38,704 nucleotides of DNA from an uncultured Clostridia bacterium. Lineage in GTDB: Bacteria > Bacillota > Clostridia > TANB77 > CAG-508. The stretch spans positions 1 to 38,704 of the forward strand of contig CANRNR010000016.1 in NCBI GenBank assembly GCA_947632035.1, read 5' to 3'. Position 1 is the first letter of the stretch. Each line of letters starts with the position of its first letter. Made by a program: the position numbers and the translations under genes. Below the pieces are notes generated by a model. The model saw nothing but the letters and a program-made list of their open reading frames with translations, made no database searches and had not been told where the DNA came from. Below, one piece after another: positions 10,465 through 27,983 of this stretch.

Positions 10465-10493
10465 ATTATAAATTCTTGTAAAGAGCTTGTAAA
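10465..10493 (-). promoter_or_regulatory. Promoter of the giant adhesin gene
   Basis: TTTACA (10493-10488) and a consensus TATAAT (10470-10465) are separated by exactly 17 nt. The predicted start of transcription near 10458 leaves a leader of about 70 nt before MDENQ. Confidence 0.75.
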
Positions 10494-10499
10494 CAACAT

Positions 10500-10533
10500 G
10501 AAAGCTGGTAAATTGCACCATTTACCAGCTTTC
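10500..10533. repeat. Perfect 14-bp inverted repeat with 6-nt loop upstream of the adhesin promoter
   Basis: The arms GAAAGCTGGTAAAT and ATTTACCAGCTTTC pair perfectly around TGCACC. The element fills most of the gap between the ATCCGTAA motif (10544-10535) and the -35 (10493). No T-run follows it on the minus strand, so it is a poor terminator for the upstream gene. It may be an operator or a cruciform-prone spacer. Confidence 0.6.
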
Positions 10534-10534
10534 T

Positions 10535-10587
10535 TTACGGATTATTTATTTTGGGTTATTATTAAAAATTATTTACATTTTTGTCAC
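10535..10587 (-). promoter_or_regulatory. Shared adhesin control module, giant adhesin copy
   Basis: In gene sense it contains TGACAAAAATGTAA, overlapping a direct-repeat-like box TGTAAA-N5-TTTAAT (10577-10561), then 16 nt, then TAATCCGTAA (10544-10535), then 41 nt to the -35. The same elements in the same order precede the three thioester adhesins, with gaps longer by about one helical turn. Confidence 0.6.
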
Positions 10588-10768
10588 ATTTTGACTATTT
10601 TTTTGGCTTTATTTTTCATAACTTGTATTTCCGTAGGTTTTAATTTTGTAACATTAGTATAATTACTATATAATTTTTCAAGATAAATTTAATTGTCTGT
10701 TTTTCTTAATGTAATTCTAAGTTCTAAAACCTTAGTTTTCCTTAAGACAAAATCCCCGTCCCATTGTA

Positions 10769-13700
10769 TTAAATTACAAACTTCTTGATTAGAACTACTC
10801 CACCTGCTATTATGCTTACTGCTATTATTACTAATCCTATATATGTTGGTGTACTACCAGTTACTACTGCTAGGATTACTGGAGCTCTATCTATATCGTC
10901 CTCACCTTTTTCATTATTTCCTGGTGTTGAGTCTATATCTGGTGAATGTGGTTCATTATCGTCTTTGTATATCTCTGCCCAGTTTACTTTCTCTCCTAAG
11001 TTGTTCTTATTGTTTATCCATGTTAGTATGATTTCTACTTGTGCGCTCTCTCCTGGTTGTAGTAATGTATCTTTTAATTGGTCTGTTAATACTTTTCCGT
11101 CTTCTTCTCTCCATAATGGATTATCTTTTGGATCAAATTTTAATCCTTCTGGAATGTAGTCTATTAGTTCTTTTGCATAGCCTGCTATCTCTCCTTCGTT
11201 TGTTACTTTTATTACGAATTTGAATTTTACTGTTGTTTTGTCTATTCTACTTCCTCTTATTTCTACTTTTGCTGGTGGTTCTGGGTTTTCATCTCCTGTA
11301 TGTCCTGTTTTGGTTACTGTTGTTTTTCCACCATATGTTACTATTGATTCACTTACCCATTTCTTTAAGCTTAAGTCAAAGTATTGTACTTTTATTTTTT
11401 CTTCATCTATATCATCTTCGTCTGGCTCATCATTGTCTGGTGTAGAGTCTACATCATCTACTGGCTCATTGTGTTCGTCTCTATCATCTGTTATTTCTGC
11501 TGTGTTTATTATTATTCTATCTGATGTATTTGGCTCTGATACTCTAAAGGCTATCTTTATGTCTCTATAATCTGGCATTGTCATTGTTTCTTGGTCAAAT
11601 GCTTCTATTAAATTTGCATTTTCTTCTTTTTCATTTTCTTTTGCTAAATAATCTGTTTCAATGTACTTAGCCTCTTCTACATTATTTGTTTCTTTTCCTT
11701 CTTCAGTATACATTTTCCATCTATACTCTACGTTTGTTTCATGCTCTGGTAAGAAAGTTAAGCCTTCTGGTAAATCATCTTTTACTTTACTTGCATATCC
11801 TGCTAGTTTTCCTTCATTAAATATTCTTAATGTATATGTTACTATGTTTCCATATGCTACTTGTACAGGATCCTTTGGATGCTCGTATTTAAATTCTGTT
11901 TCACTTAATTTAGTAAATACTGGCACTCTGTTTGTTATATCTGTATCATTTACCTTTGTAATAAATTTTCTTAATGCTAAGTCAAAGTTTTCTTTTTTTA
12001 CAATTAACTCTTCAAAGTCATCATCATCTTCTTGGCTCTTATCTCTATATTCATCTTTCTTTACATTTCCTGGTGTAGAGTCTCTATCTTCTACTGTCTT
12101 ATCTCCATGCTCATCACTATGCTCTGTTATTTCTGCTATGTTCTTTAAGCTCTTATCTTTTGAGCCAGCTTCTGCTACTACTTCACATTCTATTTGTAAG
12201 TCTTCATAATCTAAAGTTTCTCCGTTAAATGCATCTATTAATGTATTTGCTATATGGTCGGTTTCGATTGTTCTTCCATCTCCGTTTGGATTTGCCCAAC
12301 CGTATTCTCTATTTATTTCACTTTCTGGTAAGAATTTTAAGCCTTCTGGTAGGTAGTCTGTTACTTTTGTAGCATATCCTGCTATTTTTCCTTCATTGTA
12401 TACTCTTATGATGTATATTACTTTGTCTCCTGTTTCTACGATTAATGGCTCTTTTGAATGTACTTTTTGTGCTGTTGTTCCATCATCTAAACTTGCTGAA
12501 CCATTTGCTAATTTTTCTAATTCTTCGTCTGTTATTACTGGTTCTCTACTATACTTTGGTTCTCCTTGTGGTACTTCACTTTGTGGTACTGGTTGTGTTG
12601 GTTCTGGTACTTCTTCAGGAGTTTCTTCTGCTTCTGCTAATAATTCTGTTCCTGCTATGCTTATTATGAATTTTCTTAATGCTAGGTCTAATTGGTAGTT
12701 CTTCATTTGGATATATATTTTTCCATTTACTACATTTGCTTTTAATTCTGTTTTTCCTGATGTTACTTCTGTTAATGTACTTCCTATACTATTTTCTTCT
12801 ATTTCTATTGTCTTTACAACATATTCTCCTTCTTCTAGTACAGGTGTTACTTTAACTGTAATTGTATCAACACTCTTGCTATATCCTGCTGGTGCTTTTG
12901 TTTCTGTTATTGTTATTGTTTGCTCTCCAAGCTGTGTTATTGGTAAATCATTAATTGTAATTTTTCCTTGCGCATTACTTGTGTATGTATTTGTTGTTCC
13001 ATCTGGAAGTGTTATTTGAAATTCTGCGTTTGCAAGTTTTGTATTTAAGTTTTGTCCATCTACTTTTTCTAATTCTAAGTTGTATTTTCCTGTTGCCTTT
13101 TCTAATATTAATTTTTCAAAGTCATCATCATCTTCTTGACTTTCTTCTTTATATGTATTTTTATCTACGTTTCCTGGTTGTGAATCTATATCTTCTACAT
13201 TTTTATCACCATATTCATCGCTATGTTCTGTTATTTCTGCAATATTTTTTAGTTGTGTTTCTTCTTCTCCTGGTTTTGCTACTACTTCGCACTCTATTTT
13301 TAAGTCTTGATAATGCAAAGTTTCTCCATCAAATGCATCTATTAATGTATCTGCTATATGGTCTGTTTCTATTATTCTTTCATCTTCTTCTGTGCTTGTC
13401 CAGCCATATTGCTGGTTAATCCTACTTTGATTTTCCCCAGTACCTGGAGCTATGAATTTTAATCCTTCTGGTAAATGGTCTGTTACTTTTTTTGCATAAC
13501 CTGCAATTTCACCTTCGTTATATACTCTTATTGTGTATATTACTCTACTTCCTGTATGTACTTTTAATGGATCTTTTGGATGTACTTTTTCTGCTGTTGT
13601 TCCATGATCCCATGTTGCTTGTCCATTTGCTAATTTTCCTTTTTCTTCTTCTGTAATCTTTGGTTCTCTTGCAAGTGTGTCTTCATCTTCATTTTCTACA

Positions 13701-16030
13701 TCTATTCCATCAATTGTTGTTATGAATTTTCTTAATGCTAGGTCTAGTTTATAGTTCTTCATTTTAACTACTATTTTGCTTCCTTGTAGCTCTGCTGTAT
13801 ATCCTTTTAATTCTGTAGATTCTGTTGCTCCTGATTTTATTGTTCCTACTGAAGTTATCTTTTTTATTACATATTGATCATCATCTGTAGAATCTGTTTC
13901 TACCGTTATTACTATTTTTGCTTCTTGATTACTATATCCTGCTGGTGCTTTTGTTTCTGTTATTGTAATTGTATGTGTTCCTTTTTCTGAAATTTGTATA
14001 TCAGTAATATTGATTTTTCCTTGTTCATCTGTTGTATATTGACCATTTTTACTTGATCCCTCACCAGTTATTTCTACATTAAATTCTACACCTTGTAGTT
14101 TTTTAGATGTATCATATGAGTCTACTTTTTGTAATTCTATTTCATATTTTCCTGGTGTTACTTTTTCTAAAACTAATTTTTCAAAATCGTCATCATCTTC
14201 TTTATTTTTTTCTCCGTAGCCCTCTGTTGTAACATTATGTGGAGTTGAATCTCTATCTTTTGCTTGAGTAGTATTGCCATATTCATCTTTATGTGCTGTT
14301 ATTTCTGCTATATTTTTTAATTCAAGTTCAGTTTCGCCTGATTCTGCTACTACTTTACATTCTATTTCTAAGTCTTCATACTTTAAATCTTGACCATTAA
14401 ATGCATCTATTTTTCTTCCTGCTAAATAATCAGTTGTTACAGTTTTTTTATCATTATCTGTAGTTTTCCATTTATAAGTTTGATTAACTTCACTTTTGCC
14501 TTCTTCAGTACCTGGTTCTATAAATTCTAACCCATCTGGTAAATGGTCTGTTACTTCTGTTGCATAACCTGAGATTTCACCTTCATTATATACTCTAATT
14601 TTATATCTTACTATATCTCCTGTTTTAACTGACAATGGATCTTTTGGATGTTTTTTCTCTGCTGTTGTTCCATGGTCCCATCCTGCTGTTTTTAATTGTA
14701 AATTTTTTAACTCATCTGTTGAAATCTTTGGCTCTCTTGTATCTTTTCCATCTATGTCTTTATCTCCAATTTTTACAATGAATTTTCTTAATGCTAAGTC
14801 AAATTCTCCTGGTGTAAACTCTCTATTATCTGTAAAGGTTTGCTTTTCTTTTTCTATTTTAACTACTGGTTGGTCATCACCATCTGGATTTGCAACTGAC
14901 CAATAAGTTATTTTTGTAGTATAATATGTTCCTGTTATTTCAAATTTTATTTTAGAATAAGTTTCCTGTTTTGGAATAGAAATATAAAAATTATTTCCTA
15001 CTAAAGCATTCAAATTATTATTGTCATATGCCTCTCCATTAACATCTTTTAAGTATTGAACTCCATCTTGTATAACGCTATCTCCATATGTTACTTTTCC
15101 TGTTAACTCACAATCAGTTGAACCCTCTAATCTATATGGTCCAAAAATATATTTGTCTTCAGATACTGTCATTGTAACAGTTGTATCTGTAAATTTTACT
15201 TTTTTTGCATCTTTATTTACATTTTTATAATCATATTGTTCTGCATTTTGTTCTGCATTTTCTACTAAGTAATCAAACAAGGCTTGACATGCATATGCTC
15301 TTTTTTGTCCATGATCGAAATGATCACTTGATAATGCATCATATGTACCTTGTTTTACATCATTTTTTATTACATTTAAATAAAGTTCAAATGTATCATG
15401 TACATGATATGGGTCATGTTCATCTGAATTTGTATAATGCCATATTGCTAATTGTTGTACTACATCTATATCATCATCTGTTAAGTAACTGAAATCACCA
15501 GCTTTAGCATCCTCTCCTGTTGCTTCTGCATATGCTTTTGCTGCATTTAACAAATTATCTCTTCTAAAATCTCCTATTGTAATATCAGAACTACTAGCCT
15601 CCTGAGTGTTTTTTTCTGGCAATATAAAGCAATTATCTAATATCCACATTATAGCTTTATATTCTGTACTGTTAGGATCTGGTAAAATATTTTGTTTGAA
15701 TTGAGATGTTATGGAGTCTGGATCTCTCATATCAAAATAATTAGTATATGTTGCTTGTTGTGGTTGTGTACTGAACATATCTTGAGATCCAAAACCAGGT
15801 CCACCTTTCAAGCAATAAATTGTGTAGTTTCTATCATTACTAGCATCATATATTTTCCAAATATTTTTACCTGAATTTGCAAGTTGGTAACCATAACCTG
15901 AAGATCTTTCCATCTTAATATTTAAATTCATTGTTCCTGTACTTGCAAAAACAACATTAAAAGAACTAATAAATGTGGTTATTAGTACAAAAAATAAAAT
16001 TAGCAATATGATTTTCTTTTTAATTTTCAT
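10769..16030 (-). CDS. Thioester-domain surface adhesin with DUF11-like and SpaA repeats (third of three)
   Basis: The start is taken as MKIKKK at 16030: AGAGGA (16044-16039) lies 8 nt upstream, whereas the upstream in-frame ATG falls on the promoter. The 1753-residue product has a signal peptide (about 1-29, cut near VFA-S) and a thioester domain with IYC73LKGG and VVQQ193LAIW, matching the Cys and the TQXA-type Gln that form an internal thioester able to bond covalently to host amines. Five DLALRKFI/DLSLKKW modules (from about 410, 763, 1113, 1350, 1551) alternate at first with two SpaA/Cna_B domains (about 629 and 983; Lys in EKVD, Glu in TETKAP, Asn in MKNY fit an isopeptide triad). Acidic DDDDFE linkers separate modules. 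The C-terminus is VVTGS, a hydrophobic helix, then KKFVI, with no LPXTG. Likely cell-wall or membrane anchored; its ligand cannot be told from sequence. Confidence 0.9.
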   Translation of the reverse strand: MKIKKKIILLILFFVLITTFISSFNVVFASTGTMNLNIKMERSSGYGYQLANSGKNIWKIYDASNDRNYTIYCLKGGPGFGSQDMFSTQPQQATYTNYFDMRDPDSITSQFKQNILPDPNSTEYKAIMWILDNCFILPEKNTQEASSSDITIGDFRRDNLLNAAKAYAEATGEDAKAGDFSYLTDDDIDVVQQLAIWHYTNSDEHDPYHVHDTFELYLNVIKNDVKQGTYDALSSDHFDHGQKRAYACQALFDYLVENAEQNAEQYDYKNVNKDAKKVKFTDTTVTMTVSEDKYIFGPYRLEGSTDCELTGKVTYGDSVIQDGVQYLKDVNGEAYDNNNLNALVGNNFYISIPKQETYSKIKFEITGTYYTTKITYWSVANPDGDDQPVVKIEKEKQTFTDNREFTPGEFDLALRKFIVKIGDKDIDGKDTREPKISTDELKNLQLKTAGWDHGTTAEKKHPKDPLSVKTGDIVRYKIRVYNEGEISGYATEVTDHLPDGLEFIEPGTEEGKSEVNQTYKWKTTDNDKKTVTTDYLAGRKIDAFNGQDLKYEDLEIECKVVAESGETELELKNIAEITAHKDEYGNTTQAKDRDSTPHNVTTEGYGEKNKEDDDDFEKLVLEKVTPGKYEIELQKVDSYDTSKKLQGVEFNVEITGEGSSKNGQYTTDEQGKINITDIQISEKGTHTITITETKAPAGYSNQEAKIVITVETDSTDDDQYVIKKITSVGTIKSGATESTELKGYTAELQGSKIVVKMKNYKLDLALRKFITTIDGIDVENEDEDTLAREPKITEEEKGKLANGQATWDHGTTAEKVHPKDPLKVHTGSRVIYTIRVYNEGEIAGYAKKVTDHLPEGLKFIAPGTGENQSRINQQYGWTSTEEDERIIETDHIADTLIDAFDGETLHYQDLKIECEVVAKPGEEETQLKNIAEITEHSDEYGDKNVEDIDSQPGNVDKNTYKEESQEDDDDFEKLILEKATGKYNLELEKVDGQNLNTKLANAEFQITLPDGTTNTYTSNAQGKITINDLPITQLGEQTITITETKAPAGYSKSVDTITVKVTPVLEEGEYVVKTIEIEENSIGSTLTEVTSGKTELKANVVNGKIYIQMKNYQLDLALRKFIISIAGTELLAEAEETPEEVPEPTQPVPQSEVPQGEPKYSREPVITDEELEKLANGSASLDDGTTAQKVHSKEPLIVETGDKVIYIIRVYNEGKIAGYATKVTDYLPEGLKFLPESEINREYGWANPNGDGRTIETDHIANTLIDAFNGETLDYEDLQIECEVVAEAGSKDKSLKNIAEITEHSDEHGDKTVEDRDSTPGNVKKDEYRDKSQEDDDDFEELIVKKENFDLALRKFITKVNDTDITNRVPVFTKLSETEFKYEHPKDPVQVAYGNIVTYTLRIFNEGKLAGYASKVKDDLPEGLTFLPEHETNVEYRWKMYTEEGKETNNVEEAKYIETDYLAKENEKEENANLIEAFDQETMTMPDYRDIKIAFRVSEPNTSDRIIINTAEITDDRDEHNEPVDDVDSTPDNDEPDEDDIDEEKIKVQYFDLSLKKWVSESIVTYGGKTTVTKTGHTGDENPEPPAKVEIRGSRIDKTTVKFKFVIKVTNEGEIAGYAKELIDYIPEGLKFDPKDNPLWREEDGKVLTDQLKDTLLQPGESAQVEIILTWINNKNNLGEKVNWAEIYKDDNEPHSPDIDSTPGNNEKGEDDIDRAPVILAVVTGSTPTYIGLVIIAVSIIAGGVVLIKKFVI

Positions 16031-16073
16031 TTTAAAAATCCTCTTTCTAAAATTTTCTTTTTTTATACTAATA

Positions 16074-16102
16074 ATTTTAGTTTTATTTTTATATACTGTC
16101 AA
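16074..16102 (-). promoter_or_regulatory. Promoter of the third thioester adhesin
   Basis: TTGACA (16102-16097) and TAAAAT (16079-16074) are 17 nt apart. The hexamers fall inside the coding extension that a more upstream ATG would require, which supports the start at 16030. Identical in the neighbouring paralogue. Confidence 0.8.
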
Positions 16103-16153
16103 TATCAAGTTTTAGCACATTTTGCAATCTTTTCCTTTTGTATTTTTTTCCTA

Positions 16154-16216
16154 TTACGGATATAGGATTTTTAAATTTTTGTATAAAATATTACATTTAA
16201 ATTACATTTTTGTAAT
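16154..16216 (-). promoter_or_regulatory. Shared adhesin control module, third adhesin copy
   Basis: In gene sense: perfect palindrome ATTACAAAAATGTAAT (16216-16201), overlapping the perfect direct repeat TGTAAT-TTAAA-TGTAAT (16206-16190), then 26 nt, ATATCCGTAA (16163-16154), and 51 nt to the -35. The direct repeat fits the published WalR/YycF consensus TGTWAH-N5-TGTWAH. Assignment to a WalR-like regulator is inference. Confidence 0.65.
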
Positions 16217-16276
16217 TTTTTCATATATTTATTTATTATTACTTAGGGAGAAGACAATGATAAGTCTTTCGAAGCC

Positions 16277-16318
16277 AAAAAAATGTAGTACCTAATTTTT
16301 ATAGGCACTACATTTTTT
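16277..16318 (-). terminator. Terminator of the second thioester adhesin
   Basis: Just after the stop at 16327, ATGTAGTGCCTA and TAGGTACTACAT form a 12-bp stem (one wobble) around TAAAAAT, with an A-run before and a T-run after. It looks able to act in both directions. Confidence 0.85.
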
Positions 16319-16326
16319 ATGATGTA

Positions 16327-19300
16327 TTAAATTACAAACTTCTTAATTAGAACTACTCCACCTGCTATAACGCTTACTGCTATTATTACTAATCCTATAT
16401 ATGTTGGAACGCTACCTGTTACTACTCCTAGGATTACTGGTGCTCTGTCTATATCGTCTTCACCTTTTTCATTATTTCCTGGTGTTGAGTCTATATCTGG
16501 TGAATGTGGCTCATTATCGTCTTTATATATTTCTGCCCAGTTTACTTTCTCTCCTAAGTTGTTCTTATTGTTTATCCATGTTAGTATTATTTCTACTTGT
16601 GCGCTCTCTCCTGGTTGCAATAGTGTATCTTTTAATTGGTCTGTTAATACTTTTCCGTCTTCTTCTCTCCATAATGGATTATCTTTTGGATCAAATTTTA
16701 ATCCTTCTGGAATGTAGTCTATTAGTTCTTTTGCATAGCCTGCTATCTCTCCTTCGTTTGTTACTTTTATTACGAATTTGAATTTTACTGTTGTTTTGTC
16801 TATTCTACTTCCTCTTATTTCTACTTTTGCTGGTGGTTCTGGGTTTTCATCTCCTGTATGTCCTGTTTTGGTTACTGTTGTTTTTCCACCATATGTTACT
16901 ATTGATTCACTTACCCATTTCTTTAAGCTTAAGTCAAAGTATTGTACTTTTATTTTTTCTTCATCTATATCATCTTCGTCTGGCTCATCATTGTCTGGTG
17001 TAGAGTCTACATCATCTACTGGCTCATTGTGTTCGTCTCTATCATCTGTTATTTCTGCTGTGTTTATTATTATTCTATCTGATGTATTTGGCTCTGATAC
17101 TCTAAAGGCTATCTTTATGTCTCTATAATCTGGCATTGTCATTGTTTCTTGGTCAAATGCTTCTATTAAATTTGCATTTTCTTCTTTTTCATTTTCTTTT
17201 GCTAGATAATCTGTTTCAATATATTTTGCTTCTTCTATATTATCTGTTTCTTCGCCTTCTTCAGTATACATTTTCCATCTATACTCTACGTTTGTTTCAT
17301 GGTCTGGTAAGAAGGTTAAGCCTTCTGGTAAATCATCTTTTACTTTACTTGCATATCCTGCTATTTTTCCTTCATTAAATATTCTTAATGTGTATGTTAC
17401 TATGTTTCCATAGGCTACTTGTACAGGATCTTTTGGATGCTCATATTTAAATTCTGTTTCACTTACTTTTGTAAATACTGGCACTCTGTTTGTTATGTCT
17501 GTATCATTTACCTTTGTTATGAATTTTCTTAATGCTAAATCAAAGTTTCCTCTTTTTAAAATTAAGTCTTCAAAGTCATCATCATCTTCTTGGCTTTTAT
17601 CTACATATTCATCTTTCTTTACATTGCCTGGTATAGAGTCTCTGTCTTCTACTGTATCGTCTCCATATTCGTCACTATGCTTTGTAATTTCTGCTATATT
17701 TTTTAGAAGTTTATCTGCTTCATCAGCTTCTGCTATTACTTCACATTCTATTTCTAAGTCTTTATAATCTAAATTTTCTCCATCAAAGGCTTTTAATAAC
17801 TTATCTTTTAAGTATTCTGTTTCTATTGTTTTTCCGTCTTCTGATGGATTGCTCCAGCCATATTCTTTATTTATTTGACTTTCTGGTAGGAATTTTAGTC
17901 CTTCTGGTAAATAATCGGTTACTTTGCTTGCAAATCCTGCAATATCTCCTTCATTATATACCCTTATTCTATATACTACTTTATCTCCTGTTCTTACTGT
18001 TAATGGTTCTTTTGTATGAATTTTCTCTACAGTTGTTCCTTCATCCCATGATGCTGTTCTTGATTTTAATTTTGTTTTTTCTTCTTTAGAGATTTTTGGC
18101 TCTCTTACGAATACATCTTCTTCACTATTTTTTATATCTTTTCCATTTACAGTTGCTATGAATTTTCTTAATGCCAAATCTAATTTATAGTTTTTTATTT
18201 GAACTACTATTTTATTTTCTTCTAAAGTTGCTTTATAATATTTTGAACCTGAATTTTCTTCATTTGCTTCTATAGATGATACTATATCTTTTACTACATA
18301 TACCTCGCCTTTAAGCTCTGTAGTTACTATTATTGTAATTTTTATTTTTTGATTACTATATCCTTCTGGAGCTGATGTTTCAGTTATTGTAATTGTTTGT
18401 GTTCCAGCTTCTGTAATTGGTATGTTTGTAATACTAATTTTTCCTTCATTATTAGTTACATAAGGTGTATTAGTAGGTAATGGTACACCATTTATTTCTA
18501 CATTAAAGCTTGCACCTTGTAGCTTTTTTAAAATATCGTATGAATCTACTTTTTCTATTTCTATTTCGTAACTTCCGTTGGCTTTTGCTAGTTTTAATAC
18601 TTCAAAATCGTCATCATCTTGTTGACTTTTTTTATTATAATTTTCTTTTTCTACATTGTTTGGGTTTGAGTCTCTATCTCTGTCTTGATCAGTAATTCCG
18701 TATTCATCTCTATGTGCTGTTATTTCTGCAATATTTGTTAATTCTTTTTCTGTATCTCCTGGTAGTGCCACTACTTTACATTCTATTTCTAAATCTTTAT
18801 AAAGTAATGAATTAGCGTCTGATTTAAATGCTTCTATTCTTTCGTCTTCTAAATATTTTGTTTTAACTGTTCTTCCATCATCTTCAACTGTCCATTTGAA
18901 ATCTTGATTAACTTTGCTTTGACCTTTTTCAGTACCTGGCTCTATAAATTGTAAGCCTACTGGTAGATAGTCTGTTACTTCTGTTGCATATCCCGCTATT
19001 TCACCTTCGTTATATATTCTAATTTTATATTTTACTATATCTCCTGTTTTTACTGCTACCGCATCTTTTGGATGTGTTTTCTCTGCAGTTGTTACTTCAC
19101 CATTTTCTGCTAATTTTTGTATCTCTTCTTGTGAAATTTGTGGCTCTCTTGTCTTTTCTTTTGCTATCTCTTCTCCATTTATGCTTACAATGAATTTTCT
19201 TAAAGCTAAATCAAATTTTTTTGGTGTAAATTCTTTGCTATTTGTAAATGTTTTACTTACTTTTTCTACTTTAACTACTGGTTGGTGTGTTCCTCCTTGC

Positions 19301-20469
19301 TGTGCAACTGACCAATAAGTTATATCTGTTGTATAATATGTACCTGATATTTCTAATATTATTTTAGAATAATCTGTTGTATTTGGAACTGAAATATAAA
19401 AATTTTCCCCTACTAATTCATCTAATGTTTTGATATTCACTTCTTCTTTTCTTGAATTTAAATACTTAACATCATCTACTGTGTTATCATCTTCTCCGCC
19501 TTTTACTGTTGCTTTTAAGTTATATTTTTTACTGTCATTATTTGTCAATTTATATGGTCCAAAAATATATCTATCGCCTGACACTTCCATTGTTACATTA
19601 GTTCCATCAAAAGTTACTGGGTTTGTGTTCTCATTTTCATTTGTATAATCATAATCCATACCTTCGGATGTTTCTACAAAGTAATCAAATAATGCTTGAC
19701 ACGCTTTTGCTCTTTCTTCTCCATTTTCGAAAGATCTTCCTTCTGATAAAGTTTCATATGTACTTTCTTGGTCAACATCATCTTTTCTTTGATTTAACCA
19801 AAGATCAAATGTATCACCACTATTTATATGATAGTCTTGATCCTTATTTGTATAATGCCATATTGCTAATTGTTGAACTACATCTATATCATCATCTGTT
19901 AAGCAATCAAAATCACTATCTTTAGCTTCTTCATAGTTTTCTTCTGCAAATTGTTTTGCCGCTTTTAATAAATTATCCCTTCTTAAATCTCCTATTGTAA
20001 TATCAGAGTTACTAGCCCCTTCACTATTTGTTTCTGGTAATATAAAACAATTATCCAGAATCCACATTATAGCTTTATAATCTTGGCTACTAACATCTGG
20101 AAGAACGCTATCATCATTTATAATAGAATATGACATAGGTTTTGCCATTGTTTCTGGATGTCTCATATCAAAATGGTTTGTATAATCTTCTTCTTGTGGC
20201 GTTAAATTACTAAACATGTTGTTAGAGCCAAATCCAGGTCCACCTTTCAAACAATAAATAGTTTGATTTCTGTCATTACCCACTTCATATATTTTCCATA
20301 TATACTTTTGTGAATTTGCAAGCATATAACTATAACCAGATGACCTCTTCTTTTTAATGTTTAATTTAAGTGTTCCTTGGCTTGCAAAAACAACATTAAA
20401 TGAACTAATAAATGTGGTTATTAGTACAAAAAATAAAATTAGCAATATGATTTTCTTTTTAATTTTCAT
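16327..20469 (-). CDS. Thioester-domain surface adhesin, shortest paralogue (second of three)
   Basis: The start is MKIKKK at 20469 with AGAGGA (20483-20478) 8 nt upstream; the promoter overlaps the longer in-frame extension. The 1380-residue protein has a signal peptide identical to the third paralogue through VFAS, then a diverged thioester domain (IYC73LKGG; VVQQ200LAIW). Modules are DLALRKFI (about 418), SpaA/Cna_B (about 634, EKVDSYD; TETSAPEGY), then DLALRKFI (763 and 976) and DLSLKKW (1178). The end is VVTGS, a membrane helix and KKFVI. From about residue 976 on it is almost the same as its neighbours, while the N-terminal thioester domain is much less conserved, suggesting a constant stalk with a variable tip. 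Its own terminator and promoter imply separate transcription. Confidence 0.9.
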   Translation of the reverse strand: MKIKKKIILLILFFVLITTFISSFNVVFASQGTLKLNIKKKRSSGYSYMLANSQKYIWKIYEVGNDRNQTIYCLKGGPGFGSNNMFSNLTPQEEDYTNHFDMRHPETMAKPMSYSIINDDSVLPDVSSQDYKAIMWILDNCFILPETNSEGASNSDITIGDLRRDNLLKAAKQFAEENYEEAKDSDFDCLTDDDIDVVQQLAIWHYTNKDQDYHINSGDTFDLWLNQRKDDVDQESTYETLSEGRSFENGEERAKACQALFDYFVETSEGMDYDYTNENENTNPVTFDGTNVTMEVSGDRYIFGPYKLTNNDSKKYNLKATVKGGEDDNTVDDVKYLNSRKEEVNIKTLDELVGENFYISVPNTTDYSKIILEISGTYYTTDITYWSVAQQGGTHQPVVKVEKVSKTFTNSKEFTPKKFDLALRKFIVSINGEEIAKEKTREPQISQEEIQKLAENGEVTTAEKTHPKDAVAVKTGDIVKYKIRIYNEGEIAGYATEVTDYLPVGLQFIEPGTEKGQSKVNQDFKWTVEDDGRTVKTKYLEDERIEAFKSDANSLLYKDLEIECKVVALPGDTEKELTNIAEITAHRDEYGITDQDRDRDSNPNNVEKENYNKKSQQDDDDFEVLKLAKANGSYEIEIEKVDSYDILKKLQGASFNVEINGVPLPTNTPYVTNNEGKISITNIPITEAGTQTITITETSAPEGYSNQKIKITIIVTTELKGEVYVVKDIVSSIEANEENSGSKYYKATLEENKIVVQIKNYKLDLALRKFIATVNGKDIKNSEEDVFVREPKISKEEKTKLKSRTASWDEGTTVEKIHTKEPLTVRTGDKVVYRIRVYNEGDIAGFASKVTDYLPEGLKFLPESQINKEYGWSNPSEDGKTIETEYLKDKLLKAFDGENLDYKDLEIECEVIAEADEADKLLKNIAEITKHSDEYGDDTVEDRDSIPGNVKKDEYVDKSQEDDDDFEDLILKRGNFDLALRKFITKVNDTDITNRVPVFTKVSETEFKYEHPKDPVQVAYGNIVTYTLRIFNEGKIAGYASKVKDDLPEGLTFLPDHETNVEYRWKMYTEEGEETDNIEEAKYIETDYLAKENEKEENANLIEAFDQETMTMPDYRDIKIAFRVSEPNTSDRIIINTAEITDDRDEHNEPVDDVDSTPDNDEPDEDDIDEEKIKVQYFDLSLKKWVSESIVTYGGKTTVTKTGHTGDENPEPPAKVEIRGSRIDKTTVKFKFVIKVTNEGEIAGYAKELIDYIPEGLKFDPKDNPLWREEDGKVLTDQLKDTLLQPGESAQVEIILTWINNKNNLGEKVNWAEIYKDDNEPHSPDIDSTPGNNEKGEDDIDRAPVILGVVTGSVPTYIGLVIIAVSVIAGGVVLIKKFVI

Positions 20470-20512
20470 TTTAAAAATCCTCTTTCTAAAATTTTCTTTT
20501 TTTATACTAATA

Positions 20513-20541
20513 ATTTTAGTTTTATTTTTATATACTGTCAA
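20513..20541 (-). promoter_or_regulatory. Promoter of the second thioester adhesin
   Basis: TTGACA (20541-20536), 17-nt spacer and TAAAAT (20518-20513), the same as in the third paralogue. Confidence 0.8.
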
Positions 20542-20592
20542 TATCAAGTTTTAGCACATTTTGCAATCTTTTCCTTTTGTATTTTTTTCCTA

Positions 20593-20655
20593 TTACGGAT
20601 ATAGGATTTTTAAATTTTTGTATAAAATATTACATTTAAATTACATTTTTGTAAT
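20593..20655 (-). promoter_or_regulatory. Shared adhesin control module, second adhesin copy
   Basis: Palindrome ATTACAAAAATGTAAT (20655-20640), direct repeat TGTAAT-N5-TGTAAT (20645-20629), ATATCCGTAA (20602-20593); gaps 26 and 51 nt to the -35. This is a recent duplicate of the third adhesin's copy, so it is not independent evidence. Confidence 0.65.
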
Positions 20656-20714
20656 TTTTTCATATATTTATTTATTATTACTTAGGGAGAAGACAATGAT
20701 AAGTCTTTTGAAGC

Positions 20715-20756: not shown

Positions 20757-20764
20757 ATGATGTA

Positions 20765-23700
20765 TTAAATTACAAACTTCTTGATTAGAACTACTCCACC
20801 TGCTATAACACTTACTGCTATTATTACTAATCCTATATATGTTGGAACGCTACCTGTTACTACTCCTAGAATTACTGGTGCTCTGTCTATATCGTCCTCA
20901 CCTTTTTCATTATTTCCTGGTGTTGAGTCTATATCTGGTGAATGTGGCTCGTTGTCGTCTTTGTATATCTCTGCCCAGTTTACTTTCTCTCCTAAGTTGT
21001 TTTTATTGTTTATCCATGTTAGTATGATTTCTACTTGGGCGCTTTCTCCTGGTTGTAGTAATGTATCTTTTAATTGGTCTGTTAATACTTTTCCGTCTTC
21101 TTCCCTCCATAATGGATTATCTTTTGGATCAAATCTTAATCCTTCTGGTATGTAGTCTATTAGTTCTTTTGCATAGCCTGCTATTTCTCCTTCGTTTGTT
21201 ACTTTTATTACGAATTTGAATTTGACTGTTGTTTTATCTATTCTACTTCCTCTTATTTCTACTTTTGCTGGTGGCTCTGGGTTTTCATCTCCTGTATGTC
21301 CTGTCTTTGTTACTGTTGTTTTTCCACCATATGTTACTATTGATTCGCTTACCCATTTCTTTAAGCTTAAATCAAAGTATTGTACTTTTATTTTTTCTTC
21401 GTCTATGTCGTCTTCTTCTGGCTCATCATTGTCTGGTGTAGAGTCTACATCATCTACTGGCTCATTGTGTTCGTCTCTATCGTCTGTTATTTCTGCTGTG
21501 TTTATTATTATTCTATCTGATGTATTTGGCTCTGATACTCTAAAGGCTATCTTTATATCTCTATAATCTGGCATTGTCATTGTTTCTTGGTCAAATGCTT
21601 TTAATAAGTTTGCATTTTCCTCTTTTTCATTTTCTTTTGCTAGATAATCTGTTTCAATATATTTTGCCTCTTCTATATTATTTGTTTCTTCGCCTTCTTC
21701 AGTATACATTTTCCATCTATACTCTACGTTTGTTTCGTGGTCTGGTAAGAAGGTTAAGCCTTCTGGTAAATCATCTTTTACTTTACTTGCATAGCCTGCT
21801 ATTTTTCCTTCATTAAATATTCTTAATGTGTATGTTACTATGTTTCCATATGCTACTTGTACAGGATCCTTTGGATGTTCGTATTTAAATTCTGTTTCAC
21901 TTACCTTTGTAAATACTGGCACTCTGTTTGTTATGTCTGTATCATTTACCTTTGTTATGAATTTTCTTAATGCTAAGTCAAGCATGTAGTTGTTTACTTT
22001 TACTGTTATTGTATCATTATTTACACTTGCTGTTATATTTGTTTTTCCTACTGTTACATCTTTTTCTTGGCTTCCTAATGTTACTGAATCTTCTTTGTTA
22101 GATGAACCTTCTGAACTTGATGAACTATTTGAATTTTCATCTACTATTTTAATTGTTTTTGCTACATATTTACCATTTTCTATTGCAGTTGTTACTTTTA
22201 CTGTTATTGTATCTATATTTCTGCTATATCCTTCTGGTGCTTTTGTTTCTCTTATTGTAATTGTTTGTGTTTCTAATTTTGTTATTGGTAAATTACTAAT
22301 AGAGATGCTTCCTTGTTTATTTGTTGTTAATGTTTGTTTACTTCCATCTGGCAATGTTACTTCAAATTCTGCTCCTGATAGTTTTTCTCTTATATTTTGT
22401 CCATTTATCTTTTCTATCTCTAAATTGTAGCTTCCGTCTTTTGCTTTTTCTAGTATTAGTTCTTCAAAATCGTCATCATCTTCTTGACTCTTATCTTCAT
22501 ATTCGTCTTTCTTCACATTATCTGGTGTTGAATCTCTATCTTCTACTGTCTTATCTCCATGCTCGTCACTATGCTCTGTTATTTCTGCTATATTCTTTAA
22601 GCTTTTATCTTTTTCACCAGCTTCTGCTACTACTTCGCACTCTACTTTTAAATCTTCATAATCTAAAGTTTTTCCATCAAAAGCATCTATTAATGTTTTT
22701 GCTATATGGTCTGTTTCGATTGTTTTTCCATCTCCATTTGGATTTGTCCAACCATATTCTTTATTTATTTCACTTTCTGGTAAGAATTTTAATCCTTCTG
22801 GTAAGTAGTCTGTTACTTTTGTAGCATATCCTGCTATTTTTCCTTCATTGTATACTCTTATGATGTATATTACTTTATCTCCAGTTTCTACTATTAAAGG
22901 TTCCTTTGAATGTACTTTGTTTGCCGTTGTTCCATCATCTAAGCTTGCTGAACCATTTGCTAATTTTTCTAGTTCTTCGTCTGTTATTATTGGCTCCCTA
23001 CTGTATTTTGGTGTGTTTGCCACTTTTAGTTGTGTTTCTTTTGAGCTAATTGGTTCTGCCTTCTCAGTATTATTTTCAACATCATTTTTAGCATTCTTTT
23101 CAGCATTTTGGTTTGCTTTAGGCTCTAGTACTTCTTCAGGGTTTATTACTGGTTCTAATTGTTCTTCTTCTGATACTTCACTTTGTGGTACTGGTTGTGT
23201 TGGCTCTGGTGTTTCTTCAGGAGTTTCTGTTGTTTCTGCTAATAATTCTTTTCCTGCTATGCTTATTATGAATTTTCTTAATGCTAAATCTAATTGGTAG
23301 TTCTTCATTTGGACATATATTTTTCCATTTACTACATTTGCTTTTAATTCTGTCTTTCCTGATGTTACTTCTGTTAATGTACTACCTATACTATTTTCTT
23401 CTATTTCTATTGTTTTTACAACATATTCTCCTTCATCTAGTACAGGTGTTACTTTAACTGTAATTGTATCTATATTTTTGCTATATCCTAATGGTGCTTT
23501 TGTTTCTTTTATTGTTATTACTTGTTCTCCAAGCTGTGTTATTGGTAAATCACTAATCGTGATTTTTCCTTGCTCAGTAGTTGTGTATGTATTTGTAGTT
23601 TCATCTGGAAGTGTTATTTCAAATTCTGCATTTGCAAGTTTTGTATTTAAGTTTTGTCCATCTACTTTTTCTAATTCTAAGTTATATTTTCCTGTTGCTT

Positions 23701-26700
23701 TTTCTAGCATTAATCTTTCAAAGTCATCATCATCTTGCTGACTTTCTTCTCCATATCCTTCTTTATTTACATTGTTTGGAACTGAATCTCTATCTAATAC
23801 TGTTGTATCACCATGCTCATCACTATGTAATGTTATTTCTGCTATGTTTGTTAAAGTAGTTATATTTTCACCCTTTTTAGCTACTACTTCACACTCTATC
23901 TTTAAGTCTTCATAATCCAATTTACTTCCATTAAATGCATCTATTAATGTGTTTGCTATATGGTTTGTTTCTATTGTTCTGCCATCTTCATTTGGATTTG
24001 TCCAGCCATATGTCTGGTTAATTTGACTTTGACCTTCTCCATTACCTGGAGTTATAAATTTTAATCCTTCTGGTAAATAGTCAGTTACTTTTTTAGCATA
24101 TCCTGCAATTTCGCCTTCATTATATACTCTTATCGTATATATTACTTTGCTTCCTGTTTCTACTTTTAATGGATCTTTTGGATGTACTTTTTCTGCTGTT
24201 GTTCCATTATCCCATTTTCCTTGTCTATTTGCTAGTTTTCCTTTTTCTTCGTCTGTAATCTTTGGCTCTCTTGCAAGTGCATCTTCTGTTTCATTTTTTA
24301 CATCTACTCCATCAATTGTTGTTATGAATTTTCTTAATGCTAAGTCAAGTTTATAGTTTTTCATTTGAACTACTATCTTACTTCCTTGTAGCTCCGCTGT
24401 ATATCCTTTTAATTCTGTAGAATTTGATGGACCTTGTTTTATTGTTCCTACTGAGCTTATTTCTTTTACTACATATTCTCCATCTTTTAGCTCTGTAGTT
24501 ACTGTTAATGTAATTGTTCCTTCTTGATTGCTATAACCTGTTGGTGCATTAGTTTCTTTTATTGTAACTGTTTGTGTTCCTGATTTTCTAATTGGTATGT
24601 TTAGAACACTAATTTTTCCATCTGTACCTGTTGTATATGTTCCTGTTTCGTTTAATTCAACTCCATCTACTTTTACTTCGAATATTACACCTTGTAATTT
24701 TGTTTCTGTATTTTGTGAATCTACTTTTTCTAATTCTATTTCGTATTTTCCTTCTGCTTGTGGTAATACTAATCTTTCAAAGTCATCATCATCTTGTTGA
24801 CTTGTTTCTCCATAATTATTTGTTGTAACATTATGTGGTACTGAATCTCTATCTTTTACCGTTGTATCTCCATATTCGTCACTATGTGCTGTTATTTCTG
24901 CTATATTTTTTAGCTGTGTTTCTGTTTCTCCTGGTTTTGCTACTACTTCACACTCTATCTTTAAGTCTTCATAATCTAAATTACTTCCGTTAAATGCATC
25001 TATTAGTATATTTGCTATATGTTCTGTTTCTATTGTTTTTCCATCTCCATTTGTGTTTTTCCAGCCATATGTCTGGTTAATTTGACTTTGGCCTGGTTCT
25101 GTACCTGGAGTTACAAATTTTAATCCTTCTGGTAAATAGTCAGTTACCTTTTTAGCATATCCTGCAATTTCGCCTTCATTATATACTCTTATTGTGTATA
25201 TTACTCTACTTCCTGTATGTACTTGTAATGGAGTTTTTGGATGATCTTTAAATGCTGTTGTTCCATTATCTAATTTTCCTTGTCCTTTTGCTAAATTTCC
25301 TTTTTCTTCGTCTGTAATCTTTGGCTCTCTTGCAAATGTACTTTCTCCATCATTTTTTACATCTGTTCCATCAATTGTTGTTATGAATTTTCTTAGTGCT
25401 AAATCAAGTTGATAGTTTTTCATTTTAACTACTATCTTGCTTCCTTGTAGCTCTGCTGTATATCCTTTTAGTTCTGTAGAATTTGTTGCTCCTGATTTTA
25501 TTGTTCCTGTTGAGCTTATGCTTTTTACTACATATCCACCATCTTCAAAACTTGTTTGTACTGTTATTACTATTTTAGCTCCTTGATTACTATATCCTGC
25601 TGGTGCTTTTGTTTCTGTTATTGTAATTGTTTGTGTTTCTGCTTTTGTAATTGATATGTCTGTTATATTTATTTTTCCTTGTCCATCTGTTGTATAATCA
25701 TTATTTTGGCTCAAACTTTCACCTGTTATTGTTACATTAAATCCTACTCCTTGTAGTTTTTTAGATGTATCATGTGAATCTACTTTCTCTAGTTCTAACT
25801 CATATTTTCCTGGAGTTACTTTTGACAAAACTAATCTTTCAAAATCATCATCATCTTGTTGACTTGTTACTCCATATGAATTTCTTTGTACATTGTTTGG
25901 TGTTGAATCTCTATCTTTTGCTTTTGTAGTATTTCCATATTCATCTTTATGTGCTGTTATTTCTGCTATATTTTTTAATTCTGAATCACTTTCTCCTGCT
26001 TTTGCTACTACTTTACATTCTATTTCTAAGTCTTTGTATGCAATTGTTTGTTTATTGAAAGCATCTATTTTCATGTTTTGTAAATAACTTGTTTTTACGA
26101 TTTTAGAATCACCATCTACATGCCAGCCATAAGTTTCATTAACTGTACTTTGACCTTCGCCTGAACCAGGTGCTATAAACTCTAATCCATCTGGTAAATA
26201 GTCGGTTACTTCTGTTGCATAACCTGCTATTTCGCCTTCATTATATATTCTTATTTTATATCTTACTATATCTCCTGTTTTTACTGGTAATGGATCTTTT
26301 GGATGTTTTTTCTCTGCCGTTGTTCCATCATTCCATGTTCCTTGTCTTATTGCTAATTTACTAATTTCATCTGCTGATATTTTTGGTTCTCTTGTATATT
26401 CATTTCCAGTTTTTATTTCTTGATTTCCGATTTTTATAATGAATTTTCTTAGTGCTAAGTCAAATTCTCCTGGTGTAAATACTGTTTCGTCTGTAAAGGT
26501 ATTTTCTTTTTCTTCTACTTTTACTACTGGTTGATCTTTTGCTCCTGGTGCTTCTACTGACCAGTAATTTACTTCTGTTGTGTAATACTTTCCTGTTATA
26601 CTAAATTTTACTTTTGAATAATCTATTGTGTTTGGAACTGAAATATAGAATTTTTGGCCTATCATATCACTTAATTTAGTACTCTCAGATACTTGACCTT

Positions 26701-27724
26701 TACCTTCATTTAAATACTTAACATCTTGTACTACTGTATCGCTAGTACCATATGTTACTTTTCCTGTTATTTCAAAGCTAGCTGTTCCTGTTTTTTCTAG
26801 TCTATATGGTCCAAAGATGTATCTATCATTTGATACTTCCATTGTAGCTTCTGAGTCATTTATTTGTACAGTTTGATTTTTATTATTTGCATTTTTGTAA
26901 TCATAATCTAAACTTCTAGGTGTTTCTGTCAAATAATAAAATAATCCTTGACATGCTTTTGCTCTTGCTTCTCCATTTGTGAAAAGTCCTCTTTCTGATA
27001 AAGGTTGATATGTATTTGTTTGTGTAACGTCACCTTTGCTTGGATTTAACCAAAGTTCAAATGTATCATCTACGTGATATGGATCAACTTTATCTGGGTT
27101 TGTATAATACCATATTGCTAATTGTTGTACTACATCTATATCATCATCTGTCAATTTATCAAAATCACTTGATCTTGCTTCTTGATAAGATTCTTGTGCA
27201 TATGCTTTTGCTGCTTTTATTAAACTATCTCTTTTAGCATTTCCTGTTGTTATATCAGAACTAGCAGGTTCACCACTATTTCTTTCTGGTAAAATAAAGC
27301 AGTTATCTAATATCCACATTATTGATTTATATGCTTGACTATCAGGCTCTGGTAAAATGTTTACATAGTCGCTACCACTATAATATCTTTTATATTCTGT
27401 TGGTATACTTTCTGGATTTCTCATATCAAAATATCTAGTATATGTTTGAACTGCTGGTTGAGTATTAAACATATTTTGAGAACCAAATCCAGGTCCACCT
27501 TTCAAACAATAAATTGTGTAATTTCTATCATTATCTACATCAAAGATTTTCCAGATGTTTTTACTTGAGTTTCCAAGTTGATAACCATAACCGGAAGATC
27601 TTTCCATTTTAATGTTTAAACGCATTGTTCCTGTACTTGCCATAACCACATTAAATGGACTGATAAGTGCAATAATTAGAAATAAAAATAAAGTTAGTGG
27701 TAATATTCTTTTTCTTAAATTCAT
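20765..27724 (-). CDS. Thioester-domain surface adhesin, longest paralogue (first of three)
   Basis: The start MNLRKR has AGAGGA (27738-27733) 8 nt upstream. The 2319-residue product has a signal peptide (about 1-29, ending VMA-S; its sequence differs from the other two) and a thioester domain (IYC73LKGG; VVQQ201LAIW). Four pairs of DLALRKFI plus SpaA/Cna_B modules follow (DLALRKFI at about 421, 773, 1127, 1477; SpaA at 640, 993, 1347, 1765), then DLALRKFI (1915), DLSLKKW (2117), VVTGS, a membrane helix and KKFVI. The fourth DLALRKFI module carries a long Pro/Glu/Asn-rich insert (about 23020-23240) that is much shorter in the third paralogue. Lys, Glu and Asn at the expected SpaA positions suggest self-made isopeptide bonds. 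Domain names rest on motif recognition; host target unknown. Confidence 0.92.
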   Translation of the reverse strand: MNLRKRILPLTLFLFLIIALISPFNVVMASTGTMRLNIKMERSSGYGYQLGNSSKNIWKIFDVDNDRNYTIYCLKGGPGFGSQNMFNTQPAVQTYTRYFDMRNPESIPTEYKRYYSGSDYVNILPEPDSQAYKSIMWILDNCFILPERNSGEPASSDITTGNAKRDSLIKAAKAYAQESYQEARSSDFDKLTDDDIDVVQQLAIWYYTNPDKVDPYHVDDTFELWLNPSKGDVTQTNTYQPLSERGLFTNGEARAKACQGLFYYLTETPRSLDYDYKNANNKNQTVQINDSEATMEVSNDRYIFGPYRLEKTGTASFEITGKVTYGTSDTVVQDVKYLNEGKGQVSESTKLSDMIGQKFYISVPNTIDYSKVKFSITGKYYTTEVNYWSVEAPGAKDQPVVKVEEKENTFTDETVFTPGEFDLALRKFIIKIGNQEIKTGNEYTREPKISADEISKLAIRQGTWNDGTTAEKKHPKDPLPVKTGDIVRYKIRIYNEGEIAGYATEVTDYLPDGLEFIAPGSGEGQSTVNETYGWHVDGDSKIVKTSYLQNMKIDAFNKQTIAYKDLEIECKVVAKAGESDSELKNIAEITAHKDEYGNTTKAKDRDSTPNNVQRNSYGVTSQQDDDDFERLVLSKVTPGKYELELEKVDSHDTSKKLQGVGFNVTITGESLSQNNDYTTDGQGKINITDISITKAETQTITITETKAPAGYSNQGAKIVITVQTSFEDGGYVVKSISSTGTIKSGATNSTELKGYTAELQGSKIVVKMKNYQLDLALRKFITTIDGTDVKNDGESTFAREPKITDEEKGNLAKGQGKLDNGTTAFKDHPKTPLQVHTGSRVIYTIRVYNEGEIAGYAKKVTDYLPEGLKFVTPGTEPGQSQINQTYGWKNTNGDGKTIETEHIANILIDAFNGSNLDYEDLKIECEVVAKPGETETQLKNIAEITAHSDEYGDTTVKDRDSVPHNVTTNNYGETSQQDDDDFERLVLPQAEGKYEIELEKVDSQNTETKLQGVIFEVKVDGVELNETGTYTTGTDGKISVLNIPIRKSGTQTVTIKETNAPTGYSNQEGTITLTVTTELKDGEYVVKEISSVGTIKQGPSNSTELKGYTAELQGSKIVVQMKNYKLDLALRKFITTIDGVDVKNETEDALAREPKITDEEKGKLANRQGKWDNGTTAEKVHPKDPLKVETGSKVIYTIRVYNEGEIAGYAKKVTDYLPEGLKFITPGNGEGQSQINQTYGWTNPNEDGRTIETNHIANTLIDAFNGSKLDYEDLKIECEVVAKKGENITTLTNIAEITLHSDEHGDTTVLDRDSVPNNVNKEGYGEESQQDDDDFERLMLEKATGKYNLELEKVDGQNLNTKLANAEFEITLPDETTNTYTTTEQGKITISDLPITQLGEQVITIKETKAPLGYSKNIDTITVKVTPVLDEGEYVVKTIEIEENSIGSTLTEVTSGKTELKANVVNGKIYVQMKNYQLDLALRKFIISIAGKELLAETTETPEETPEPTQPVPQSEVSEEEQLEPVINPEEVLEPKANQNAEKNAKNDVENNTEKAEPISSKETQLKVANTPKYSREPIITDEELEKLANGSASLDDGTTANKVHSKEPLIVETGDKVIYIIRVYNEGKIAGYATKVTDYLPEGLKFLPESEINKEYGWTNPNGDGKTIETDHIAKTLIDAFDGKTLDYEDLKVECEVVAEAGEKDKSLKNIAEITEHSDEHGDKTVEDRDSTPDNVKKDEYEDKSQEDDDDFEELILEKAKDGSYNLEIEKINGQNIREKLSGAEFEVTLPDGSKQTLTTNKQGSISISNLPITKLETQTITIRETKAPEGYSRNIDTITVKVTTAIENGKYVAKTIKIVDENSNSSSSSEGSSNKEDSVTLGSQEKDVTVGKTNITASVNNDTITVKVNNYMLDLALRKFITKVNDTDITNRVPVFTKVSETEFKYEHPKDPVQVAYGNIVTYTLRIFNEGKIAGYASKVKDDLPEGLTFLPDHETNVEYRWKMYTEEGEETNNIEEAKYIETDYLAKENEKEENANLLKAFDQETMTMPDYRDIKIAFRVSEPNTSDRIIINTAEITDDRDEHNEPVDDVDSTPDNDEPEEDDIDEEKIKVQYFDLSLKKWVSESIVTYGGKTTVTKTGHTGDENPEPPAKVEIRGSRIDKTTVKFKFVIKVTNEGEIAGYAKELIDYIPEGLRFDPKDNPLWREEDGKVLTDQLKDTLLQPGESAQVEIILTWINNKNNLGEKVNWAEIYKDDNEPHSPDIDSTPGNNEKGEDDIDRAPVILGVVTGSVPTYIGLVIIAVSVIAGGVVLIKKFVI

Positions 27725-27837
27725 TTTTCAATTCCTCTCTTCTTATTTTAATTTATTTATTTCAATTTATCTTATCTAATTTATGTCAATTTAAATCAGC
27801 TATATTTTTAAGTTAAATACTATTTCACCTACTATTA

Positions 27838-27866
27838 ATTTTACTCCGTTTTAAGCAATATGTCAA
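27838..27866 (-). promoter_or_regulatory. Promoter of the first thioester adhesin
   Basis: TTGACA (27866-27861), exactly 17 nt, TAAAAT (27843-27838). The leader is about 107 nt, longer than in the paralogues. A second TTGACA at 27789-27784 has no -10 at proper spacing. Confidence 0.75.
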
Positions 27867-27918
27867 CCTTTAAAAGCTTATTTTCTTAGAGTACATCGTA
27901 TTTTGTCATTTTTCTTTT

Positions 27919-27983
27919 TTACGGATATAATATTTTTTATTTTTTTTATAAAAATGTTAAAAATGTATTACAGTTTTGTCATA
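27919..27983 (-). promoter_or_regulatory. Shared adhesin control module, first adhesin copy
   Basis: In gene sense: ATGACAAAACTGTAAT (27983-27968), box TGTAAT-ACATT-TTTAAC (27972-27956, one mismatch to the WalR-type consensus), 27 nt, ATATCCGTAA (27928-27919), and 52 nt to the -35. Surrounding sequence is not a recent duplicate of the other copies, so conservation of the elements and spacing is informative. Confidence 0.6.

Follow-up and report, generated by a model that had tools for sequence, protein, structure and literature searches.

Class I activators of the CRP type occupy positions that resemble -81 and -91, and the plc gene of Clostridium perfringens provides an example of an upstream activating region made of phased A-tracts. 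Surface genes are also linked to the WalR/VicR system: The passages on its binding site in two reports give the consensus TGTWAH-N5-TGTWAH (PMC9210968, PMC4168254), and those on Streptococcus mutans VicR describe an extended site with an A following each hexamer as well as sites before gtfB, gtfC, ftf and wapA (PMC4168254). Here, we have analysed a window of 38,704 nt that corresponds to the whole contig C16 (CANRNR010000016.1) of the 1.69-Mb assembly GCA_947632035.1 of an uncultured Clostridia bacterium, which consists of 43 contigs. In this window, four genes for large surface proteins are each preceded by a promoter module of two elements, an array of WalR/VicR-type half-sites and, further downstream, the motif WTCCGTAR. 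Our work demonstrates that this observation is real, and that it is stronger and wider than a single window could show. One half of the module is a known type of site; for the motif WTCCGTAR and for the combination, we found no earlier description.

All four copies are located on the minus strand and keep the same order. In copy 1, an array of three WalR-type half-sites in 11-bp steps, two of them degenerate (TGTGAC-N5-TGTAAA-N5-TTTAAT, 10561..10588), is followed by the motif ATCCGTAA (10535..10542) and by the promoter TTTACA-N17-TATAAT (10465..10493), with 49 nt from the motif start to the -35. Copy 2 combines a weak AATTAC and TGTAAT-N5-TGTAAT (16190..16217) with ATCCGTAA at 16154..16161 and the promoter TTGACA-N17-TAAAAT at 16074..16102, and here the distance is 59 nt. 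Copy 3 carries the identical array (20629..20656), ATCCGTAA at 20593..20600 and the promoter TTGACA-N17-TAAAAT (20513..20541), again with 59 nt. In copy 4, the outer two half-sites of the array are degenerate (TATGAC-N5-TGTAAT-N5-TTTAAC, 27956..27983), and ATCCGTAA (27919..27926) starts 60 nt before the -35 of TTGACA-N17-TAAAAT (27838..27866). The initial annotation had described these four two-part modules with box-to-motif gaps of 16, 26, 26 and 27 nt and motif-to--35 gaps of 41, 51, 51 and 52 nt, and all copies and both series were reproduced, the former measured from the end of the second half-site to the start of T(A)ATCC. It had also regarded two copies as recent duplicates and the other flanks as unrelated: Copies 2 and 3 are indeed identical at 174 of 175 positions, and the similarity of copy 1 to either of them remains in the shuffled range, but the pairs with copy 4 score slightly above the best of 200 shuffles (1-4, 16.0 against 10.0; 2-4, 23.0 against 18.5; 3-4, 24.5 against 21.0), and copy 4 may therefore share a distant common origin with the other copies. 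In the window, ATCCGTAA has five matches, whereas 0.47 are expected and none of 100 shuffles reached five. Four of them are those upstream of the adhesin genes; the fifth is at 1439 (+), within the adhesin open reading frame (ORF) 3-3611. A degenerate form of the first box has exactly four matches without mismatch, all at the four promoters; since it has 46 matches versus 33.5 expected if up to three mismatches are permitted, this box alone is weak.

The first element had been annotated as a 15-bp unit; it is better read as tandem half-sites at 11-bp spacing than as such a unit or as a new palindrome. Among 95 non-redundant WTCCGTAR sites of named loci, for which no array was required, two TGTWA are 11 bp apart in 39 cases, as compared to 0.1 cases on average and never more than two in 200 shuffles. 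We also considered the palindrome TTACA-N4-TGTAA, which is BlaI/CopY-like. This reading was rejected because direct repeats in 11-bp steps stand out even in sites that had not been preselected for an array, and the left arm conserves no more than the C and the adjacent A residues. The alignment of 88 pattern-selected arrays gives TGTAAT-ANAA(T/A)-TGTAAT-A; in this and the other alignments the core letters of array, motif and -35 are fixed by the search patterns, but the A after the hexamers, present in 92% and 67% of the arrays, was not required. The arrays thus contain two TGTWAH direct repeats with a 5-bp spacer; window arrays 2 and 3 fit the WalR consensus exactly, and arrays 1 and 4 hold one exact hexamer each. 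In the set of 127 sites introduced below, two half-sites are found in 69, three in 44, four in 13 and five in one array. Four OmpR-family regulators are encoded in the genome itself. Among them, the protein at C1:103314 best matches YycF/WalR (334.1 bits), adjoins a kinase that scores best with WalK (375 bits), and has a DNA-binding domain that best matches the solved VicR/WalR/YycF domains, with the stretch RTVDVT[VI]RR[IL]REKIE in common. WalR relatives were detected in all 17 genomes tested, with at least 72% identity in 14 genomes of the own family (that of the query included) and 60-61% in three genomes of sister families. We infer from these similarities that WalR is the candidate binder of the array. 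One genome of a sister family has a WalR-like array directly before the -35 of a gene that reads as FtsA-like (L256).

Evidence for phasing comes from the distances between the elements. From 263 sites, 205 non-redundant ones were obtained, and 127 of these have a confident array and promoter; the other 78 were excluded for a weak array or promoter score. The distance from the last half-site to WTCCGTAR forms a comb at about 24, 34, 45 and 55 bp (22-26 in 10 sites, 31-36 in 49, 43-48 in 64, and 54-55 in four), and that from WTCCGTAR to the -35 a comb at about 38, 49, 59 and 71 bp (37-43 in seven sites, 47-51 in 29, 56-61 in 85, 70-71 in three, and 77, 81 and 93 in one each). With a period of 10.5 bp, R is 0.80 for each distance, and the best periods are 10.5-10.8 bp; for the distance to the -35, the sequence downstream of each of the 205 sites, to which no score filter was applied, was shuffled 200 times in a simple manner, and this gave a mean R of 0.06 and a maximum of 0.17. 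A single large peak supplies much of R, and the phasing is supported because the remaining values sit about one turn away with few in between. The gain or loss of 11-bp repeats could by itself quantise the distance between array and motif, an effect that measuring from the last half-site reduces but does not remove, whereas the distance from the motif to the -35 is free of it since there is no such repeat. Around 74 non-redundant array anchors, 61 TCCGTA were counted (14 at +48-50, 36 at +57-60, five at +69-72, and six elsewhere), as compared to two occurrences of a control 6-mer of equal composition. In the named loci without score filter, TTGAC is found 56-60 bp from the motif in 39 cases, at 70-71 in three and elsewhere in five; thus, support for the 49-bp class comes mainly from other loci and from weaker -35 sequences. 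The motif centre is mostly near -91 or -81, and more rarely near -70 or -103, if transcription is assumed to start 7 nt past the -10. The motif occupies helical-turn positions upstream of the -35, with three of the 127 sites off the comb.

The promoters contain further parts that the initial annotation had missed, namely inverted copies of the motif and phased A-tracts. An inverted TACGGA is present upstream of the array at 26 of 129 anchors (a count in which two loci with overlapping anchors appear twice), 20 of them at -55 to -58; window copy 1 is one such case, with TACGGA at 10630..10635 on the minus strand, starting 56 nt before the array anchor. The motif flanks the array on both sides at 20 anchors, the mirror site is there alone at six, and 103 have none. 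A divergent gene as the cause of the mirror site can be rejected for most cases: A divergent ORF lies upstream at two of the 20, three of the six and 11 of the 103 anchors, respectively. In 83 sites with a distance of 57-60 nt from the W to the -35, AAAA is most frequent at about -68, -45, -33, -21 and -12 relative to the -35, with troughs near zero; in a permutation control that ignores neighbour correlation, the maximum at 10.5 bp was 0.45. Between motif 1 and the -35, the window holds a 14-bp perfect inverted repeat (10500..10533, minus strand; z -6.3), and this hairpin is also present in the C6, C8 and C30 copies.

Is the module more than a local feature? On its own, ATCCGTAA is not enriched in the genome (27 matches versus 51 for the reversed control). 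In contrast, the strict pair ACAAAANTGTAA-N{12,42}-ATCCGTAA occurs eight times versus zero for the reversed control, which argues against mere chance frequency. In addition to the four window copies, the pair is found at C6:9250, C8:54639, C14:38415 and C30:13647, and each site precedes a gene for a surface-protein-like product; a ninth, diverged copy of the module lies at C6:50273. The strict pair was detected in five of 57 genomes including this one, and the looser pattern AAATGTWATN{37,66}TCCGTAR in 128 of the 238 genomes that represent the order, which cover 29 of its 41 genera: in 122 of 183 genomes of the own family versus six of 55 in four sister families. Of the five inspected among these six sister-family matches, four (L117, L118, L119 and L121) are not modules, whereas L120 is a module. 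In the phylum, 35 of 299 genomes match the looser pattern; among the matches listed, no second exact half-site at +11 was seen by eye apart from those of the own genome. Thus, the module seems to be confined largely to a single family of gut Clostridia. For comparison, 80 regions of relatives were picked by hand among the matches listed, with the aim of avoiding near-duplicates and coding-looking matches; two of them (L158 and L188) turned out to lie within long open frames and were left out of the alignment and spacing counts together with L117, L118, L119, L121, L125 and L133. The named relatives are mostly uncultured Clostridia or Clostridium metagenome-assembled genomes, some of them from rumen or chicken samples.

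The genes behind the module encode proteins that appear destined for the cell surface. An ORF is in reach downstream at 124 of the 127 sites, and by a simple count 121 of the 124 proteins have a hydrophobic N-terminal stretch; of the other three, one is signal-peptide-like and two have a long charged N-terminus. The putative surface proteins of L182 and L202, which have a cytoplasmic-looking N-terminus, contain N-terminal ERERERER repeats. A Pfam scan of at most the first 330 residues of 123 of these proteins, the short one of L227 being left out, found the thioester domain in 57, BspA-type repeats in three, and a single cohesin, a pilus N-terminal domain and others. The shared adhesin regulon proposed initially is well supported by the comparison, but it is wider than the thioester adhesins, and surface genes without this domain had been overlooked. 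The 75 named loci contain 86 large surface ORFs: An array accompanies the exact motif at 53 of them and a degenerate motif at 11, whereas under the strict rule no array was recognised at two ORFs with the exact motif and at five with a degenerate one; the suspicion that orthologous genes might persist without the elements is thus not borne out in general, although it holds for some loci. In the window, the large surface proteins encoded on the minus strand contain SpaA, DUF11 and thioester domains: the giant surface protein with SpaA domains (gene 1, 3568..10389), the thioester adhesins of gene 2 (10769..16030) and gene 3 (16327..20469, with an upstream region duplicated from gene 2 and a thioester domain score of 20.8 bits, narrowly below the cut-off of 22), and the giant adhesin with SpaA/DUF11 domains (gene 4, 20765..27724, with the ATG at 27724 as listed). 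The ORFs of genes 1 to 3 had been listed with TTG start codons that coincide with the promoter or lie close to it, and the ATG codons at 10389, 16030 and 20469 are likelier starts.

Which protein might read the second element? Its core TCCGTA is fixed by the search pattern, and outside of this core 103 aligned sites reveal weak preferences only. In a subgroup (L092, L093, L094, L096, L107, L114 and L115), the motif is WTCCCTAR, mostly at a similar position; some of these loci keep an intact mirror TACGGA. Searches of the open-licence literature text, figures excluded, with 7- and 8-mers of WTCCGTAR as whole words on both strands retrieved no paper that is bacterial by its title and abstract, and the listings of topic searches in the same literature contained nothing relevant to it. 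We considered WTCCGTAR as a LytTR site. LytTR proteins are present in 45 of 57 relatives and in 33 of 37 genomes of the own family, which made this reading attractive; they were missing from eight of 22 chosen genomes, with some doubt left by assemblies that are 87-96% complete, and in six of these eight the module was inspected: G003 (L242), G012 (L241 and L250), G172 (L253), G224 (L135 and L161), G241 (L223 and L224) and G246 (L207). LytTR as the universal binder is thus disfavoured. An AraC-type binder was rejected: HTH_18 was found in 11 of 57 genomes and is absent from G008, which has three strict pairs. Neighbouring genes do not offer a source for the regulator either, since among the clusters listed the one recurrent DNA-binding type recognised is an OmpR-type regulator at five of the 75 loci. 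A putative response-regulator protein with a GGDEF-like region, as judged by reading, is encoded near the adhesin genes at 36 of the 75 loci (e.g. L097:9684), and its recurrence suggests a link to c-di-GMP.

Taken together, we consider it probable on balance, on the grounds of sequence comparison, that the module is a co-activation promoter for surface proteins, served by a WalR-type regulator and a second factor. The array of two to five half-sites in 11-bp steps would be bound by the WalR/VicR-type response regulator, and a second protein would sit on WTCCGTAR, most often about 34 or 45 bp past the start of the last half-site; A-tracts are often spaced regularly in the DNA between the elements. 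Both proteins would then touch RNA polymerase at a sigma-A promoter whose -35 is often TATTGAC, and they would act from one DNA face only, so that spacing would evolve mostly in whole turns. Since the spacings do change mostly by whole helix turns, two proteins probably act from one face, in agreement with the initial proposal of at least two proteins on a fixed face: Both distances follow combs of about 10.5 bp across the 127 sites. From this arrangement we infer that the proteins bind, that they activate and do not repress, and that they contact the polymerase. In some promoters, the upstream inverted TACGGA would allow two copies of the second protein to flank the WalR array. It is tempting to speculate further, though we put this forward tentatively and with more doubt than belief, that WTCCGTAR is read by a family-specific, hitherto undescribed DNA-binding protein, a dedicated activator of surface proteins that forms with WalR and the A-tracts an enhanceosome-like, helix-fixed complex, couples a signal of cell-wall growth to adhesin display, and loops the DNA round the array where inverted sites are present.

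Several observations weigh against the co-activation reading. The summed distance from array to -35 concentrates at only R = 0.48, the best period of the A-tracts among those tested is 11.5 (0.68) rather than 10.5 (0.52), and the 127 sites are not independent events because they are related by descent. In 60 of the 127 sites, a promoter-like TTGA...TATAAT precedes the motif and overlaps the array or lies close to it, and the array could therefore act on a distal promoter. Of the 86 surface ORFs, 12 show neither element within 260 bp and three the array only; the 12 include second genes, kinase-like membrane proteins, and L048, where the motif is beyond 260 bp. The motif is degenerate in 16 of the 86, and 12 of these have TCCCTA. 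L043 encodes a close relative of window gene 4 without the motif, which is a real loss, and L042 another such relative. As to the regulator, the protein at C1:103314 is narrowly below the NCBIfam cut-off of 340 bits, the kinase next to it is far below the WalK cut-off of 725 bits, and three further OmpR-family regulators are encoded in the same genome. WalR was also present in all three sister-family genomes tested, and thus its presence does not explain the distribution of the module. Finally, the reversed control of the looser pattern matches in many genomes as well, so that its raw counts are no proof, and non-module combinations of WTCCGTAR and TTGAC exist, mostly within long open frames.

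The same parts could serve repression, with WalR and the second protein forming a phased complex, looped where a mirror site exists, that silences the surface genes until a signal arrives. The 20 anchors at which the array is flanked by two copies of the motif, the six with the mirror alone and the possible distal promoters near the array would suit this idea, as would the part of the Clostridioides difficile study that deals with genes repressed under Wal-ON conditions (PMC9210968). Against it, array and motif are located upstream of the proximal promoter and not over it, and the mirror site is missing at 103 of the 129 anchors. The predicted motif centres at about -81 and -91 moreover resemble the positions of class I activators, and we regard repression as unlikely, if a serious competitor. 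It is also conceivable that a PhoB-like or VanR-like member of the OmpR family takes the place of WalR on the array, with the rest of the co-activation reading unchanged. PhoP-type sites are similar direct repeats, the genome offers four such regulators, and the C6 adhesin promoter has a VanR-like gene about 2.3 kb upstream; among the four, however, the WalR-type recognition stretch is confined to the C1:103314 protein, and the consensus holds the extra A known for VicR, which makes this substitution quite unlikely.

Two more explanations were considered. WTCCGTAR might be part of an RNA leader transcribed from the distal promoter near the array, and the upstream TTGA...TATAAT as well as the strong hairpin after motif 1 would fit. 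However, 67 of the 127 sites belong to the same phased set without this upstream promoter-like sequence, inverted copies lie upstream and hence outside such a transcript, and steps of about 10.5 bp would have no purpose for RNA. Moreover, one permissive Rfam search of the window found no family at gathering score; its two mir-6 matches scored far lower and fall on the same hairpin (28056-28104). An RNA element or riboswitch was rejected on this result, and we consider the leader very unlikely. The module could finally reflect shared ancestry alone, its elements hitch-hiking without function with duplicated adhesin genes: Copies 2 and 3 stem from a recent duplication, copy 4 has a weak similarity to them, and many downstream genes belong to one thioester-adhesin family. 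Yet the elements and their phase are retained in spite of poor conservation in the stretches that separate them, and the downstream proteins are diverse; this explanation is hardly credible to us.

In the window, the adhesin genes are preceded on the same strand by genes for a GdpP-like phosphodiesterase, a nucleotidyltransferase, and the beta' and beta subunits of RNA polymerase. The hairpin at 28056-28104 is very strong (z -12.4), lies between the GdpP and giant adhesin genes, and is probably a bidirectional terminator.

Our work provides a rule by which a surface-protein regulon can be recognised from sequence in a family of gut bacteria that is represented here by uncultured genomes, and it links this regulon to WalR, a regulator of the cell wall. 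The 127 natural spacing examples form what we judge to be a large natural series for a helical-phase constraint, and the protein that reads WTCCGTAR is now a concrete target. The initial annotation knew of no described module of this form; as the first element matches the WalR/VicR site type, this holds just for WTCCGTAR and the combination. With class I promoters of the CRP type, the module shares a motif centre mostly at about -81 and -91, one turn apart, but here the site is a short asymmetric 8-mer without known binder, with a regulator array further upstream. Regularly spaced A-tracts upstream of the -35 are shared with regions of the C. perfringens plc type; here, they are interleaved with two elements that resemble protein sites. 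The control of surface genes by S. mutans VicR has in common a VicR/WalR system with sites before such genes, and the passages on these sites mention no TCCGTAA partner (PMC4168254). The closest likeness is to the WalR/VicR site itself: The half-site sequence, the 11-bp step, the trailing A and a WalR-like regulator in the genome are common to both, whereas the arrays described here often have three to five half-sites (58 of 127), are located well upstream of the -35, and are tied to a second, phased motif.

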